A stretch of DNA of 64,000 nt from a virus: IMG/VR virus record IMGVR_UViG_3300037245_002163, positions 37,301 to 101,300 of that record, one strand, 5' to 3'. A program made the position numbers and the translations under genes. The notes beneath the pieces are model-generated. The model was not told where the DNA came from. It saw only the letters and a list, made by a program, of their open reading frames with translations, and ran no database searches. Positions 2,707-47,069 of the stretch are shown one piece after another. The first letter of the stretch is position 1, and each line of letters opens with the position of its first letter.

Positions 2707-3612
2707 ATGCGCGCACTGGTTTTAGGGGGAGGGGGCAGTAAGGGTCCGTATCATTTAGGTGCGATCACTTCGCTGCTTTCGCAGGGATACCGATTTGACT
2801 TGTTCGCGGGGGTGAGCGTGGGGGCGCTCATGGCCGCATACCTAGCGCAGTTCGATGACCGCGATGTGCTCATAGGCCATCGCGCGTTGGTCGATATCAT
2901 GATGCGGCTCAACACGACTGACGTGTGGCGCAATTGGAAGTTCTGGCGTCGCGTCGCCGGCCTTTGGAAGACGAGCATCTACAACTCATCGGGGCTCCAT
3001 GCGCTCATCGAAAAGAGCGTGGACCCAAAGAAGATCCGTGAGAGCGGTAAGAAGCTGCGCATCGGCGCCGTGGATCTCTACAGTCGCGGGTACGAAGTGT
3101 TCGATGAGACCTATGTTCCGCTCAACAAAGCCATCGCCGCCAGTGCTTCACTGCCGTTCGCATTCTCGCCCGTGAGCATGGGCGGGAGCTTGTGGGTCGA
3201 CGGGGGTGTACGCGCCATGACGCCTTTGGCATCGGCTATCGAAGCGGGAGCAACCGACATAGTGGCGATCACGCTACAGCCCAAAGAGGCGAGCTTGAAG
3301 TTCAAAGACAAACCGAACGCGCTCGACATTGGGCTGCATTCGATTGATCTCATGAGCGACGAGATCGTGACGAAGGATATCAAGATCGCGCAGCTCTACA
3401 CGAAGATCAGGGGCCTAGAGCTACAGCTCGCCGGGGCGTGCGGCCATGCGCTCGACCACACCACGAACAAGCGGGCCGTGAAGGTGCTGCACATCCGGCC
3501 GCAGTTCGCCTTGAACGAGGATAGCGCCAAGTTCATGCCCGCCGAAGCCGTTCGCCTGTACCAACAGGGCCAGGAAGACGCTCAGCATGCGGTGTTTTTG
3601 GCCACGCCTTGA
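2707..3612 (+). CDS. Patatin-like phospholipase
   Basis: All patatin signatures are visible: the Gly-rich oxyanion loop GGGGSKG at residues 7-13, the nucleophile elbow GVSVG with Ser37, and the DGG motif with Asp165, forming the Ser-Asp dyad. At 301 residues it is about the size of a single-domain bacterial patatin, and no signal peptide is present. The family hydrolyses acyl chains from phospholipids. The start is an ATG after a purine-rich AAAGGGGGG. The gene follows three fibre-like genes in the same direction with a short gap, so it could act on host membranes at entry or lysis, or in the cytoplasm. Family is well supported; role is inferred. Confidence 0.9.
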   Translation: MRALVLGGGGSKGPYHLGAITSLLSQGYRFDLFAGVSVGALMAAYLAQFDDRDVLIGHRALVDIMMRLNTTDVWRNWKFWRRVAGLWKTSIYNSSGLHALIEKSVDPKKIRESGKKLRIGAVDLYSRGYEVFDETYVPLNKAIAASASLPFAFSPVSMGGSLWVDGGVRAMTPLASAIEAGATDIVAITLQPKEASLKFKDKPNALDIGLHSIDLMSDEIVTKDIKIAQLYTKIRGLELQLAGACGHALDHTTNKRAVKVLHIRPQFALNEDSAKFMPAEAVRLYQQGQEDAQHAVFLATP

Positions 3613-3638
3613 CTACCTAATCGACCGTCTATTATGCT
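3609..3638 (+). promoter_or_regulatory. Sigma70-like promoter, very short leader
   Basis: A -35-like TTGACT at 3609-3614 and TATGCT at 3633-3638 are separated by 18 bp; an overlapping TATTAT at 3630 gives 15 bp. The ATG at 3645 starts 6 bases after the -10 element, so the transcript would be leaderless or nearly so. Confidence 0.45.
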
Positions 3639-3644
3639 GGGGAT

Positions 3645-4301
3645 ATGGAGCCCCACTACCCATGGGACGATGAGCCCAACGTCGGCGCGACCGATGCGTA
3701 CGGGTATCGCTGCCGGCTGCGGCGCAATACGGACCTAGGAACGTGGTGCGGCTACGTGGTTATCCCCGCCGATCATCCGTGGTACGGGGTCTCGCTCTCC
3801 GACCTTGACGACGTGCGCGTGCATGGCGGCGTGACCTACTCCGGCGATAATCTGTACGAAGGGGAATGGGTCATAGGCTTCGACTGCGGCCATGCGTTCG
3901 ATCTGATCCCCAAGCTCATGACGGGCGAGCTGGGGAACGAGCCCCCGCTAGGCCCGCAAGGGATCTACCGGGACTACGACTACGCGATGGGCGAAGCCGC
4001 CGCGATAGCGCAGCAAGCGCAGCAAGCCGTGGCCAATCCCGATGACCCGCTCGACCGCAGCGACGAAGAGCTGACGCGTGCGCTCAAAAGGCTCCGCGGC
4101 GAAGTCGTGGCAAAGGCTCCCGAGCCCGGAGCGCCGCCAGAGTACGTGCGGCACCCGGACGAGACCGATGGGGAGTTCAAGCGGCGTATCATCGAAGACA
4201 ATGCCCGCGTCGCTGCCGGCATGGCGCCCCGTAGGCGCCCCAAGCTCTCCGCCGCCGCCGAAGCACGCATCGATGACCCGGAGCGCAAAGACCCATGGTA
4301 G
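3645..4301 (+). CDS. Hypothetical protein with DLSDEEL-type motif
   Basis: A 218-residue protein not recognised. Residues 1-105 form a compact Trp/Tyr/Gly-rich domain. Residues 125-140 are Ala/Gln-rich helix. Around residue 145 is DRSDEELTRALKRLRGE, close copies of which occur in the next genes. The C-terminus is Pro/Arg-rich and probably disordered. It starts immediately after a promoter-like sequence and overlaps the following gene by 7 bases. The shared motif suggests the group acts on, or binds to, a common partner. Confidence 0.55.
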   Translation: MEPHYPWDDEPNVGATDAYGYRCRLRRNTDLGTWCGYVVIPADHPWYGVSLSDLDDVRVHGGVTYSGDNLYEGEWVIGFDCGHAFDLIPKLMTGELGNEPPLGPQGIYRDYDYAMGEAAAIAQQAQQAVANPDDPLDRSDEELTRALKRLRGEVVAKAPEPGAPPEYVRHPDETDGEFKRRIIEDNARVAAGMAPRRRPKLSAAAEARIDDPERKDPW

Positions 4302-4999
4302 GGGATAATGACGACACCACGGATCTGAGCGATGCGGCGCTCATGCGACGGCTCAAAAGGCTACGCGGCGAAGACGCACCAGAGCCCGAACCCAAGCCGA
4401 AGCGCGAGCGCAGCGCGTTCGATGGGATCGATCTGGGGATCGCGCCCCCGTATGAGCTGCCCGACTTGCATGAGCATGGGCTCATCGCGATGGATCATGA
4501 AATGAGCCGTTCGGAGCGGCACGATGCGATCGAGCATCGGCTCACGTGCAAGGTCATTCACGATGACATGGCCGAAGAGATTCAGAAGAGCATGCGCTTC
4601 GACCTACGGCTGCACCTTCCCGGCATGTTCCAACATACCAGCGCGGTTGTGTGCGAACGCTACGATGCTGGCACGCGCACGGCCGTGTTCCGGCCCATCG
4701 AAGAGCTGCCCCCGGTCCCGAAGCTCGTGCCCATGCCGGAGCCCACGGAGCCCGTGCTGTTGATCATCGGTCGAAGTGACCGCGCCGAAGAGTTTGCGCG
4801 GGTCCGCAATGTGGCTTGGAAGTCGGTTCGAACGAGCCGCGATTTGCGGGGCCATGCGCCCGGTACGAAGCTGATCGTGCTCGATGAGGGCTACCCGCAC
4901 AGCCCCGAAGAGCTGGAAAAGCTGTTGGCGTTGGCCGCCGACCGCGGCTACGAAGCGGAGATGGTGACCTTCGGCCGCACGTCCCCCTCCGAGTTCTGA
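4295..4999 (+). CDS. Hypothetical protein, DLSDAAL motif plus Rossmann-like C-terminus
   Basis: A 234-residue protein starting inside the end of the upstream gene. Residues 9-27 carry the shared motif (DLSDAALMRRLKRLRGE), followed by an acidic/basic proline-rich linker. The last 75 residues alternate strand and helix (VLLIIGRSD, then a strand KLIVLDEG, then a helix) as in a small Rossmann-like or flavodoxin-like domain, though no classical nucleotide-binding glycine motif is obvious. Function unknown. Confidence 0.5.
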   Translation: MVGDNDDTTDLSDAALMRRLKRLRGEDAPEPEPKPKRERSAFDGIDLGIAPPYELPDLHEHGLIAMDHEMSRSERHDAIEHRLTCKVIHDDMAEEIQKSMRFDLRLHLPGMFQHTSAVVCERYDAGTRTAVFRPIEELPPVPKLVPMPEPTEPVLLIIGRSDRAEEFARVRNVAWKSVRTSRDLRGHAPGTKLIVLDEGYPHSPEELEKLLALAADRGYEAEMVTFGRTSPSEF

Positions 5000-43971: not shown

Positions 43972-45057
43972 ATGGCTCAGGTAAATCCACTAGACCCGGC
44001 AGAGAACAGCGGCATTGACACACGTGCGTCGGGCAACGTCATTCGAGTCACGACCAATGACCCGAACGTGGCCATCGCCATCAAAGCGGGCATGGAACGG
44101 CTCGTAGTCGAGCGGAGCACGGACCAGGGCCTCACGTACCAAGAGATCACGCACGCCTCAGAGCGGCCCGTGCTTGAAGCCGAACAGTTCGTCTACGAGT
44201 TTTTCGACCGCTGCGGCAGCCCGTCCTACCTGTACCGCACGCGCTACGCGGGCACGATCAAGGGCGAGAAGATGTGCACGGAAGCGAGCCCCCCGATCCT
44301 TGGGGCGGGCTTGGCCGTGCGCAATATCCTCACGGTCGACGACTTGAAGTCGCGCTACATGTTCGGGCTCGACCTTACGAACGACAAAGGCGTGCCGCTC
44401 GAAGACGCCGTGTACCTGAGCTACATCATGGCCGCGATTCGCGGCTTCGAGAAGCAAGTCGATATCCCGCTGTTGCCGTCGACCTTCGTAGAGAAGCACG
44501 ACTACTACCGGCACGACTATCACTCGTTCAACTTCATTCACCTGGATAACACCCCGGTGATCAGCGTTGACGAGTTTCGCGTTCAATATCCTTCGGGGCA
44601 GAACGTGATCATCTTTCCCGGCGAATGGATTCGCTTGAACAAGCTCGAAGGGCACGTACAGATCGTCCCGACCAGCGGCACGCTCAGCGAGATCCTTGTC
44701 GGCCAAGGCGGCTCGTTCTTACCGGCGATCTACAACGGGCTCGACTATCTCCCGCATCTCTTCGAAGTGAGCTACACGGCCGGCTTCGAAGACGGGCAGA
44801 TCCCAGCCGATATCGTGAACGTGATCGGCATGATGGCGAGCATCGGCCCCTTCCATATTTTTGGTGATCTCATCGCGGGGGCTGGCATCGCGAATATCAG
44901 TCTGAGCATGGACGGGCTGAGCCAGTCCATCGGCACTACCAGCTCGGCAACCAACTCCGGTTACGGCGCGCGAGTCGGCAACTATCTGAAAGAGATCAAG
45001 GCCGCGATCCCGCTGTACAAGCAATACTACCGCGGTCTCAAAATGACTTGGGCATAG
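43972..45057 (+). CDS. Head-tail connector-type structural protein
   Basis: A 361-residue protein with GAGGGGGGC upstream. The middle contains LTVDDLKSRYMFGLDL and AIRGFEKQVDIPLLP, a pattern reminiscent of phage head-tail adaptor proteins in which helices start with a DDLK segment. It lies between head and neck genes. No enzymatic motif. Confidence 0.55.
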   Translation: MAQVNPLDPAENSGIDTRASGNVIRVTTNDPNVAIAIKAGMERLVVERSTDQGLTYQEITHASERPVLEAEQFVYEFFDRCGSPSYLYRTRYAGTIKGEKMCTEASPPILGAGLAVRNILTVDDLKSRYMFGLDLTNDKGVPLEDAVYLSYIMAAIRGFEKQVDIPLLPSTFVEKHDYYRHDYHSFNFIHLDNTPVISVDEFRVQYPSGQNVIIFPGEWIRLNKLEGHVQIVPTSGTLSEILVGQGGSFLPAIYNGLDYLPHLFEVSYTAGFEDGQIPADIVNVIGMMASIGPFHIFGDLIAGAGIANISLSMDGLSQSIGTTSSATNSGYGARVGNYLKEIKAAIPLYKQYYRGLKMTWA

Positions 45058-45076
45058 CGACGGCCCAGCGTATAAG
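45048..45076 (+). promoter_or_regulatory. Sigma70-like promoter, short leader
   Basis: TTGGGC (45048-45053), 17-bp spacer and TATAAG (45071-45076) overlap the previous stop. The ATG at 45082 starts 5 bases after the -10 element, which implies a leaderless or almost leaderless transcript. Confidence 0.5.
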
Positions 45077-45081
45077 CGGGC

Positions 45082-45435
45082 ATGCCCACCCCCCATTCCC
45101 CCGATCCGCAGTTCACGCTGCGCTTCCCCGTCCTAGAGTCTCGTGCCGACCAGATCGAACGGGATGCGCACGCCTTTTTGAAACGGAACCCCGACTTCTG
45201 GGATGAGTTTTGCCGCCGTGCGTTTCTCATTCGCAAGCGCGGGCACAAGCACTATTCCGCGATGGTCGTGGTGCAGAACATTCGTTGGCATACCGACCTT
45301 GGCGACTGCAAAGACTTCAAGATCAATAACAACTACACGCCTATTTTCGCGCGCGTGTTCAACAGCTCATACCCGGAGCTGAACGACTTTTTCAAGACTC
45401 GGGAGCAAACGAGCAGACGATCGGTGGCGCGATGA
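45082..45435 (+). CDS. Conserved-type small phage protein
   Basis: A 117-residue protein. The sequence VVVQNIRWHTDLG, then DFKINNNYTPIFARVF and ELNDFFKTR, is a recurrent pattern in uncharacterised proteins of many tailed phages. Mostly helical; no catalytic motif known. Has its own promoter-like sequence, so it may be expressed apart from the head operon. Overlaps the next gene by ATGA. Confidence 0.6.
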   Translation: MPTPHSPDPQFTLRFPVLESRADQIERDAHAFLKRNPDFWDEFCRRAFLIRKRGHKHYSAMVVVQNIRWHTDLGDCKDFKINNNYTPIFARVFNSSYPELNDFFKTREQTSRRSVAR

Positions 45436-46688
45436 GCGTCGCCCCCGGCACCCTGATCACCACGTCGAAGGGGCTCATGCCCGTCGAAGCCCTCACCACG
45501 GCCCCGTTCAAGGTCTGGACGGGCCAGCAATACGAGGAAGCCATGGCCTACTCCGCGGGGGTCGAGCCTGTTGCCCGCGTGAAGCTCGCTAACGGGCTCT
45601 CTGCGCTTGTAAGCCCATTGCAGGCTCTAGCGGTCGTTCCCTCAGAGAGCGCCCTAGGAGCCGCCTTGTGGCGCGAGCAACGGGCACTCAAAGCGGGCGA
45701 CCGCGTGCTCATGGGCTACCAGCGCGAAGACACCTTGCTCGATACCGACTTGCTGGGATGCGGCTACCGGGACCGGGCGATGCTCGAAGATCCCGGCATT
45801 TGGCACCTACTCGGCTACGCCCTTGGCAGCGGCTACTTCCCCGGAGCCCCGCCTAGCACGGAGTCATTCAGCGTTTTCGCCTACAACCGGCTGGACGAGC
45901 CCTTGCTAGAAGACTTCGCGGCGACGTGCGACGCCCACTTCATTCCCGCACTGGCGACCGAAGGCGACCACGCCATGCTTTCGATCCATGACCGGGACTT
46001 CCATCGATGGCTGCGCGATCTGGGGTTTCAGTCGGCCGCGGAAGGCCAGTCGATCCCGAACCGCTTCTTTCGGGCGCCGGCTTGGATTCGTGGCGCGCTT
46101 CTGAGGGGGCTCTTCGCCAGCGCATCGAAGTGGGATGAGACCTACAACGCGCCCGTGCTCTACCTTCATGACTCCCGGCTCCGGCAGTCCGCGCTCCGAT
46201 GCCTATGGTCCATCGGCGTGGCGGCGCATGAGAAGCAGAGCGATACCGTCGACCATAAGATCCGCGTTTCCGATGTAGCGGCGTGGCAGGACCACGTAGG
46301 GGAGCTACAAGAGGGCGAGCCCCGCGAAGCCAAGCGAGCACCCGGCTATGAGAACCGCTGGGACGTGCTTCCGGTGTCGACGGCGCAGACGGTTATCCGC
46401 GCCATGATGGCGAGCCCCGTTTGGAAGACGCTGACGGGTGACGAGCGCGAGAAGATCGCACGGCTGGAGCGCCGTGGCCTAGCCATCCGGCGCCCCCTAG
46501 CAATCGAGTATCTACGCAAGGTCCATGCGGAAGTGCCCGCGGCGCTCCACTACCACCACGCCAAAGTGGGCATGGTGGACGTGGAACCCATTCACCGGGC
46601 GCTCATGTATCGCGTGGAAGTGGCGAATGAGGCGGCCCTGTTTCTCGCCAATCACATCGCGATGGGCGACTCACGCGCGGTGCTGTAG
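45432..46688 (+). CDS. Free-standing degenerate intein-like (Hint plus LAGLIDADG) protein
   Basis: 418 residues. The start MSVAPGTLITTSKG matches intein block A with Ser2 as first intein residue. The block B equivalent (VSPLQALAVV) lacks the His. LAGLIDADG-like helices at 126-136 (LLGYALGSGYF) and 219-230 (IRGALLRGLFAS) have Ser and Ala where catalytic Asp is expected. The end, VEVANEAALFLANHIAMGDS, lacks the usual His-Asn. There are no exteins. Splicing and cutting are therefore unlikely; it appears to be a fossil or repurposed element. Confidence 0.65.
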   Translation: MSVAPGTLITTSKGLMPVEALTTAPFKVWTGQQYEEAMAYSAGVEPVARVKLANGLSALVSPLQALAVVPSESALGAALWREQRALKAGDRVLMGYQREDTLLDTDLLGCGYRDRAMLEDPGIWHLLGYALGSGYFPGAPPSTESFSVFAYNRLDEPLLEDFAATCDAHFIPALATEGDHAMLSIHDRDFHRWLRDLGFQSAAEGQSIPNRFFRAPAWIRGALLRGLFASASKWDETYNAPVLYLHDSRLRQSALRCLWSIGVAAHEKQSDTVDHKIRVSDVAAWQDHVGELQEGEPREAKRAPGYENRWDVLPVSTAQTVIRAMMASPVWKTLTGDEREKIARLERRGLAIRRPLAIEYLRKVHAEVPAALHYHHAKVGMVDVEPIHRALMYRVEVANEAALFLANHIAMGDSRAVL

Positions 46689-47003
46689 CTCTTGGATCAT
46701 TAGGAGCTGGTCGACGACCATGTTCCGAAGCTGTTGATTCTCAGCTTCAAGATGATTCGTCTTCGCGTACTGGACGAGCTTATTGCTCCGGGTACGCGTC
46801 TTGCGCCGTGCCTTCGGCTTGGAAGTCGGAGGGGCTGCGGTTTCGATCTGCGCCTTCCACTTGTAGATCAACGCGGAGCTGAGCTTGTGCTTCGCAGCGA
46901 CCGCCATCGCGCTTGTGCGGTTCGCTTCGGCTACGTACCGTTGCTTCTGCGCGGGGGTAAACTTGCGCCGTACGACGCGTTTGGTGCTTGCCTTTTTGGG
47001 CAT
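46671..47003 (-). CDS. Transposase-type helix-turn-helix regulator candidate
   Basis: A 110-residue protein from ATG 47003. Residues 12-50 (RKFTPAQKQRYVAEA, then AVAAKHKLSSALIYKWK) match the helix-turn-helix of IS3-type OrfA proteins. A basic linker and a coiled coil (NHLEAENQQLRNMV) follow, as in OrfA leucine zippers. No OrfB, inverted repeats or other IS features are present, so it is more likely a stand-alone DNA-binding regulator. It overlaps the convergent intein-like gene by 18 bases. Confidence 0.6.
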   Translation of the reverse strand: MPKKASTKRVVRRKFTPAQKQRYVAEANRTSAMAVAAKHKLSSALIYKWKAQIETAAPPTSKPKARRKTRTRSNKLVQYAKTNHLEAENQQLRNMVVDQLLMIQELQHRA

Positions 47004-47027
47004 ACTAGGGACTCTCTTTCGTTGTAG

Positions 47028-47069
47028 GATACGACGCATCATAGTCGACGCGCCGTATTCGATTGTCAA
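47028..47069 (-). promoter_or_regulatory. Promoter region with imperfect palindrome
   Basis: A leftward TTGACA at 47064-47069 is followed by TATGAT at 47038-47043 (20-bp spacing, longer than ideal). GATACGACGC (47028-47037) and GCGCCGTATT (47050-47059) are imperfect inverted repeats over the -10 region, a likely operator for the 47003 gene product or another regulator. Confidence 0.45.

Follow-up and report, generated by a model that had tools for sequence, protein, structure and literature searches.

Background

Inteins are usually viewed as selfish elements that persist only through splicing and homing. Among the closest described systems to the one considered here are the yeast proteins HO and WHO, which are intein-derived and free of exteins, with HO having been domesticated and WHO being encoded beside its target gene; both still cut DNA and possess a zinc finger (PMC7282813). 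Another is the cellular regulator WhiA/DUF199, in which DNA is bound through an HTH domain, the LAGLIDADG domain being dead and its DNA surface altered (PMC3781837). In the PhoVMA intein the surface became acidic and DNA was bound more weakly alongside the loss of the catalytic acids, while the element remains inside a host protein with its splicing under selection (PMC8966425). Free-standing 'Intein_splicing' genes have also been counted in Jug phages, in passages that do not take up residue loss or selection (PMC12363816); the likeness is drawn from this description.

Here we analyze a gene in a 64,000-nucleotide stretch of viral DNA, hereafter the window, taken from a 101-kb virus record (IMG/VR IMGVR_UViG_3300037245_002163). 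An earlier note, made from the letters alone, had described its product as free-standing and intein-like, with all catalytic signatures missing, and had suggested a domesticated intein, a view that is borne out by full-length homology to intact inteins, by losses common to all members of the family and by purifying selection. Like HO and WHO the gene is intein-derived and has no exteins, but its product lacks both the catalytic acids and a zinc finger. As in WhiA, its LAGLIDADG domain has outlasted the catalytic residues and its surface is altered; unlike WhiA, it has a Hint domain, and no added HTH domain was seen in it. It shares with PhoVMA, one of its best structural matches, a dead acidic LAGLIDADG domain set within a Hint domain, but it does not reside inside a host protein. 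In the literature outside subscription journals that we surveyed, a full intein that stands alone in a phage and is catalytically dead had not been reported. To judge from its sequence, the gene is a real, domesticated and chemically dead intein, for which HO/WHO and WhiA serve as precedents.

Results and discussion

Architecture and homology to intact inteins

The reading frame is unbroken, as the earlier note had stated, and has no extein (Table 1): in all members of the family Met alone precedes residue 1 and SRAVL alone lies past the Hint end, the C-terminus of the window protein reading LANHIAMGD followed by SRAVL. Used singly as queries, the proteins matched no family in Pfam, PHROGs or NCBIfam, and the first tblastn matches, all weak, were to inteins of phage ribonucleotide reductases, in their splicing regions. 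An intact intein from the DNA polymerase (Pol I) of a huge phage aligns with residues 2-413 of the stand-alone protein, its residue 1 pairing with the residue directly after Met and its end with the GD; a profile alignment of the two spans 383 columns (E 7e-7). This intein matches LAGLIDADG_3 and Hom_end above the Pfam cut-offs, and a second huge phage holds a copy of it that is 47-53% identical. These Pol I inteins (LR745208.1, L051/L052) have the same domain order as the stand-alone protein over its whole length, but at 22-25% identity they differ in retaining Cys1, SPEH/SPDH, LGMVYGDG, GYFSADG and the terminal His-Asn, and in lying inside a host protein. The Pol I of the 485-kb huge phage L047 (LR745208.1) contains two inteins in reading frame 1, of which the second (3001-4380) is an intact LAGLIDADG intein. 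A Tsukamurella helicase intein also matches residues 40-271, weakly (E 2e-3). When the five stand-alone proteins by themselves were made into a profile, its top PDB sequence was PI-PkoII, with both LAGLIDADG motifs in register, at an E-value (0.098) that is not significant alone.

Table 1. Features of the intein-derived gene and its surroundings, in positions of the window
Feature	Position	Strand	Remarks
Head-tail connector gene (phrog_772; SPO1 gp6.3-like)	43972..45057	+	PHROG match, SPO1-like relatives
Empty intein site between N328 and S329 in connector gene	44955..44956		occupied in L019, L020 and L021 by an intact 140-aa mini-intein
GTATAA box	45070..45075	+	immediately before the Hint ATG in relatives
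phrog_13625-like gene	45082..45435	+	this lineage only, between GTATAA box and Hint gene; 4-bp ATGA overlap
Stand-alone Hint-LAGLIDADG (intein-derived) gene	45432..46688	+	ATG start, 418 aa; homologues, intact inteins, predicted fold
Hint N-terminal splicing region, residues 2-98	45435..45725	+	alignment to intact inteins
Block B SPLQ, residues 61-64	45612..45623	+	His of TxxH replaced by Gln in all members
Degenerate LAGLIDADG endonuclease region	45780..46277	+	alignment, predicted fold; strongest purifying selection, dN/dS 0.21
LAGLIDADG motif 1 LLGYALGSG, residues 126-134	45807..45833	+	S in place of the catalytic acid (in relatives, N or G)
LAGLIDADG motif 2 ALLRGLFASASKW	46095..46133	+	Ala in place of the catalytic Asp in all
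Helical stretch between endonuclease region and Hint C	46278..46562	+	matches same region of polymerase inteins by homology; weakest constraint, dN/dS 0.44
Hint C-terminal region, blocks F-G	46563..46670	+	terminal Gly-Asp, not His-Asn
SRAVL tail	46671..46685	+	opens with TCA (+1 Ser), which on the other strand is the TGA stop of the next gene
HTH_Tnp_1 gene, tail-to-tail	46671..47069	-	stop overlaps Hint gene

Structure prediction, which the earlier note had proposed as a check, returned a Hint/LAGLIDADG fold. The pLDDT of the model rose from 43 with five close sequences to 65 with a ten-row alignment including the polymerase inteins; confidence in the model is medium, and poor over residues 136-182, and true inteins were among its alignment rows. 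A Foldseek search with this model gave 39 PDB matches at E <= 1e-3, every one of them an intein or the LAGLIDADG enzyme I-DmoI; the lowest E was 1.6e-10, and the best matches were TliVMA, PI-PfuI, PhoVMA, PI-PkoII and PI-SceI. The two LAGLIDADG-like helices recognized earlier, LLGYALGSG and LLRGLFASAS, are in register with those of PI-PkoII and fall in the right fold by that alignment, the polymerase inteins and Foldseek alike. Taken with homologues that are 63-65% identical, the full-length profile match and the best structural matches to intein endonucleases show that the resemblance is not due to chance; alignments and model together indicate that the stand-alone protein is of the Hint fold and shares common descent with inteins. 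The search for homologues that splice within other genes, also proposed earlier, recovered the intact Pol I inteins and none with the same dead residues inside another gene. A scan of bacterial and archaeal genome contigs with two short peptide patterns each for the family and for the polymerase inteins, a weak screen, confirmed no copy of either.

Distribution and genomic context

The major head protein, connector and tail sheath encoded near the gene are related to those of SPO1-like phages. The key related loci were found by searching with the connector protein, not with the divergent stand-alone protein, and come from phages whose connectors are 87-89% identical to that of the window. A full-length stand-alone gene, 63-65% identical at the amino acid level, is present in four further lineages (L017 type, L018, L019 and L021), while L020 carries an N-terminal fragment comprising the first 38 residues only. 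L027 and L034 appear to share the genotype of L017, and L002 has that of the window; the gene exists full-length in at least five phage lineages including the window, and as a fragment in a sixth. All are from one phage clade, the only one from which the family is known. In the more distant L025 and L046 (connectors 56-58% identical) the next structural gene directly follows the connector, which marks the stand-alone gene and its neighbours as an accessory island.

The earlier note had also seen the gene as coupled to an upstream gene with its own promoter. The ATGA overlap and the GTATAA box are both real, but the upstream gene is an insertion of the window lineage. In the window the box lies just ahead of the ATG of this upstream gene (45082-45435), while in the relatives it lies within about ten nucleotides before the Hint ATG, including in L021 with its otherwise different spacer. 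The box is therefore probably the original signal of the Hint gene, for which it would act as a promoter; GTATAA is not enriched within the window. It leaves little room for a ribosome site (window 45070-45084; L017-L021), and is possibly a short-leader promoter. The phrog_13625-like gene sits exactly between box and start codon, and its homologues are scattered in unrelated phages. We considered this gene as the source of an in-frame extein and rejected it, since it lies in another frame and is absent from the relatives. L021 has a different small gene, probably with a membrane-spanning product, between connector and Hint gene (L021:8623-8809), so this spot appears to collect insertions. On the other side, the HTH_Tnp_1 (transposase-HTH) protein stands alone without a transposase and is kept in all relatives.

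Loss of the residues for splicing and DNA cleavage

The block B His, both endonuclease Asp residues and the terminal His-Asn had been reported as missing, and this holds across the family. Block B reads SPLQ or SPDQ in all full-length members, the acid of LAGLIDADG motif 1 is replaced by S, N or G, and the Asp of motif 2 (LLRGLFASAS in the window) by an Ala common to all. The block-F Asp position is R, Y, C or A, and every copy showing the site ends the Hint region in Gly-Asp before Ser, with His-Asn missing. At position 1 (residue 2, after Met, aligning with the intein Cys1), the Ser that the earlier note had seen in block A is present in the window, as is block A itself, but is not conserved, being Ala in all relatives; it was accordingly rejected as a retained nucleophile.

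That the protein might still splice or cleave itself as an intein of an unusual class, with Ala1 and a terminal Asp, seems hardly credible to us, though some of its peculiarities have counterparts in active inteins. Class 2 and 3 inteins lack Cys1. Phage ribonucleotide reductase inteins (L012, L014, L015) end in Thr-Gly-Gln before Cys and not in His-Asn, which is therefore not obligatory, so Ala1 or a non-Asn end alone is no proof of inactivity. The +1 Ser is moreover invariant. However, in 6/6 loci examined the TCA codon of this Ser is, on the opposite strand, the TGA that ends the HTH gene, which explains the invariance and led us to discard it as a sign of retained splicing. Further, the block B His is Gln throughout, the residues at the block-F Asp position mean that the conserved Cys of class 3 is also missing, and there is no extein to join. 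The summed losses and the lack of exteins make splicing implausible. By alignment, then, all known members are without the residues for splicing and DNA cleavage, and either activity by any known chemistry is implausible.

Purifying selection on the stand-alone gene

The comparison of dN/dS among relatives that had been suggested gave a pooled value of 0.30 (0.25-0.37) for the whole gene, pointing to purifying selection, with values of 0.16-0.40 in every pair of stand-alone genes. By region it was 0.34 for Hint N, 0.21 (0.15-0.28) for the endonuclease region, 0.44 for the middle region and 0.25 for Hint C; the intervals of the endonuclease region and Hint N overlap, so the firm contrast is that with the middle region. 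The neighbouring connector gene has lower pairwise values (0.09-0.17), indicating that constraint on the stand-alone gene is moderate. Neutral simulation did not preserve an open frame on the longer branches; on the window branch it stayed open in 0/2000 runs.

These values bear on whether the gene is a selfish relic that lost nuclease and splicing after fixation and is slowly decaying, its frame merely unbroken so far. Such an outcome is predicted by the intein homing-cycle model (PMC8966425) and fits the loss of all catalytic residues and the dN/dS above that of the neighbouring gene; earlier, active stages could account for part of the constraint. Against it stand five full-length lineages with an open frame, constraint in every pair, the low dN/dS in the very part that should rot first, and the simulation. 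The dN/dS values and the simulation together render decay unlikely. The gene is very probably a degenerate intein whose retention has been selected, and probably has a new job.

An intact mini-intein in the neighbouring connector gene

Three relatives carry a mini-intein in the connector gene (L019:8985-9404, L020:3934-4353, L021:8068-8487), whereas the same site is vacant in the window, L017 and L018. It has Cys1, SPDH and His-Asn before Ser; its match to Intein_splicing (E 2e-6 to 3e-5) falls short of the curated cut-off. It is a Hint homologue of the stand-alone protein (30-32% identity) residing in the neighbouring gene, but differs in its intact splicing residues, the absence of an endonuclease domain and its location in a host protein. 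Descent of the stand-alone gene from it was considered and not adopted, as the Hint tree leaves their kinship unsettled. Between L019 and L020 the flanking DNA differs by 3% in the bin with the site as against 7-12% elsewhere, while the inteins are only about 61% identical (dS 0.96 versus 0.34 for the connector). Such near-identical flanks around strongly differing inteins suggest mobility or exchange at the site.

This pattern, and the patchy presence of the mini-intein among close relatives, would be accounted for if the stand-alone gene had moved it in trans, a collaborative homing of the kind known for introns (PMC10448857). Yet L019 and L021, which have the mini-intein, also lack both catalytic acids, phages without the mini-intein have the stand-alone gene all the same, and the tree does not make the two sisters. 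We therefore regard such a role as quite improbable, though a homing partnership in the past, before the acids were lost, is possible.

A proposed non-catalytic role through binding

On balance we favour, as the likely course, a domestication in which a complete LAGLIDADG intein parted from its host protein, to be carried by SPO1-like myoviruses as a late-region gene that stands alone. Its product would then act through binding, without chemistry, a role to which we give a similar likelihood, and the folded endonuclease region would be its working part. The partner could be a protein, or the surface could have been reshaped like that of the endonuclease-like domain of WhiA; one or other of these is somewhat likelier than strong DNA binding. 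The net charge of the endonuclease region, a weak proxy for a binding surface, is -1 to -5 in the stand-alone members as against +4/+5 in the two intact polymerase inteins. This shift from basic to acidic slightly favours a protein partner over DNA, with a likelihood little better than even.

Specific binding of an uncut DNA site, as the earlier note had suggested by way of example, is less likely in our estimate; the protein could be a repressor, or could protect an old homing site against rival homing elements. The LAGLIDADG fold is retained, and nowhere is the protein better conserved; upstream of the gene there is a vacant intein site, at a distance of about 126 nucleotides in L017 and L018 and of 476 in the window; and WhiA offers a precedent (PMC3781837). 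However, the charge of the region runs against it, a similar acidic surface goes with weaker DNA binding in dead PhoVMA (PMC8966425), and WhiA binds DNA mainly through its added HTH domain. No HTH or other credible Pfam match was seen in any member of the stand-alone family, a very divergent HTH being possible, and the window protein has no Cys-X-X-Cys motifs, the zinc finger being absent and the Hint C-end present. Returning to domestication with a binding role, we tentatively propose that the Hint and endonuclease folds may be kept together as a non-catalytic binding scaffold with a role in late infection or in the virion, or else to guard the neighbouring intein site without cutting it.

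Conclusions

A complete intein that neither splices nor homes, yet is maintained by selection as a gene of its own in at least five phage lineages, would clearly exemplify intein exaptation going further than in yeast HO, with the nuclease lost too. The intact mini-intein in the neighbouring gene of some relatives makes the origin of the stand-alone gene testable at one locus.
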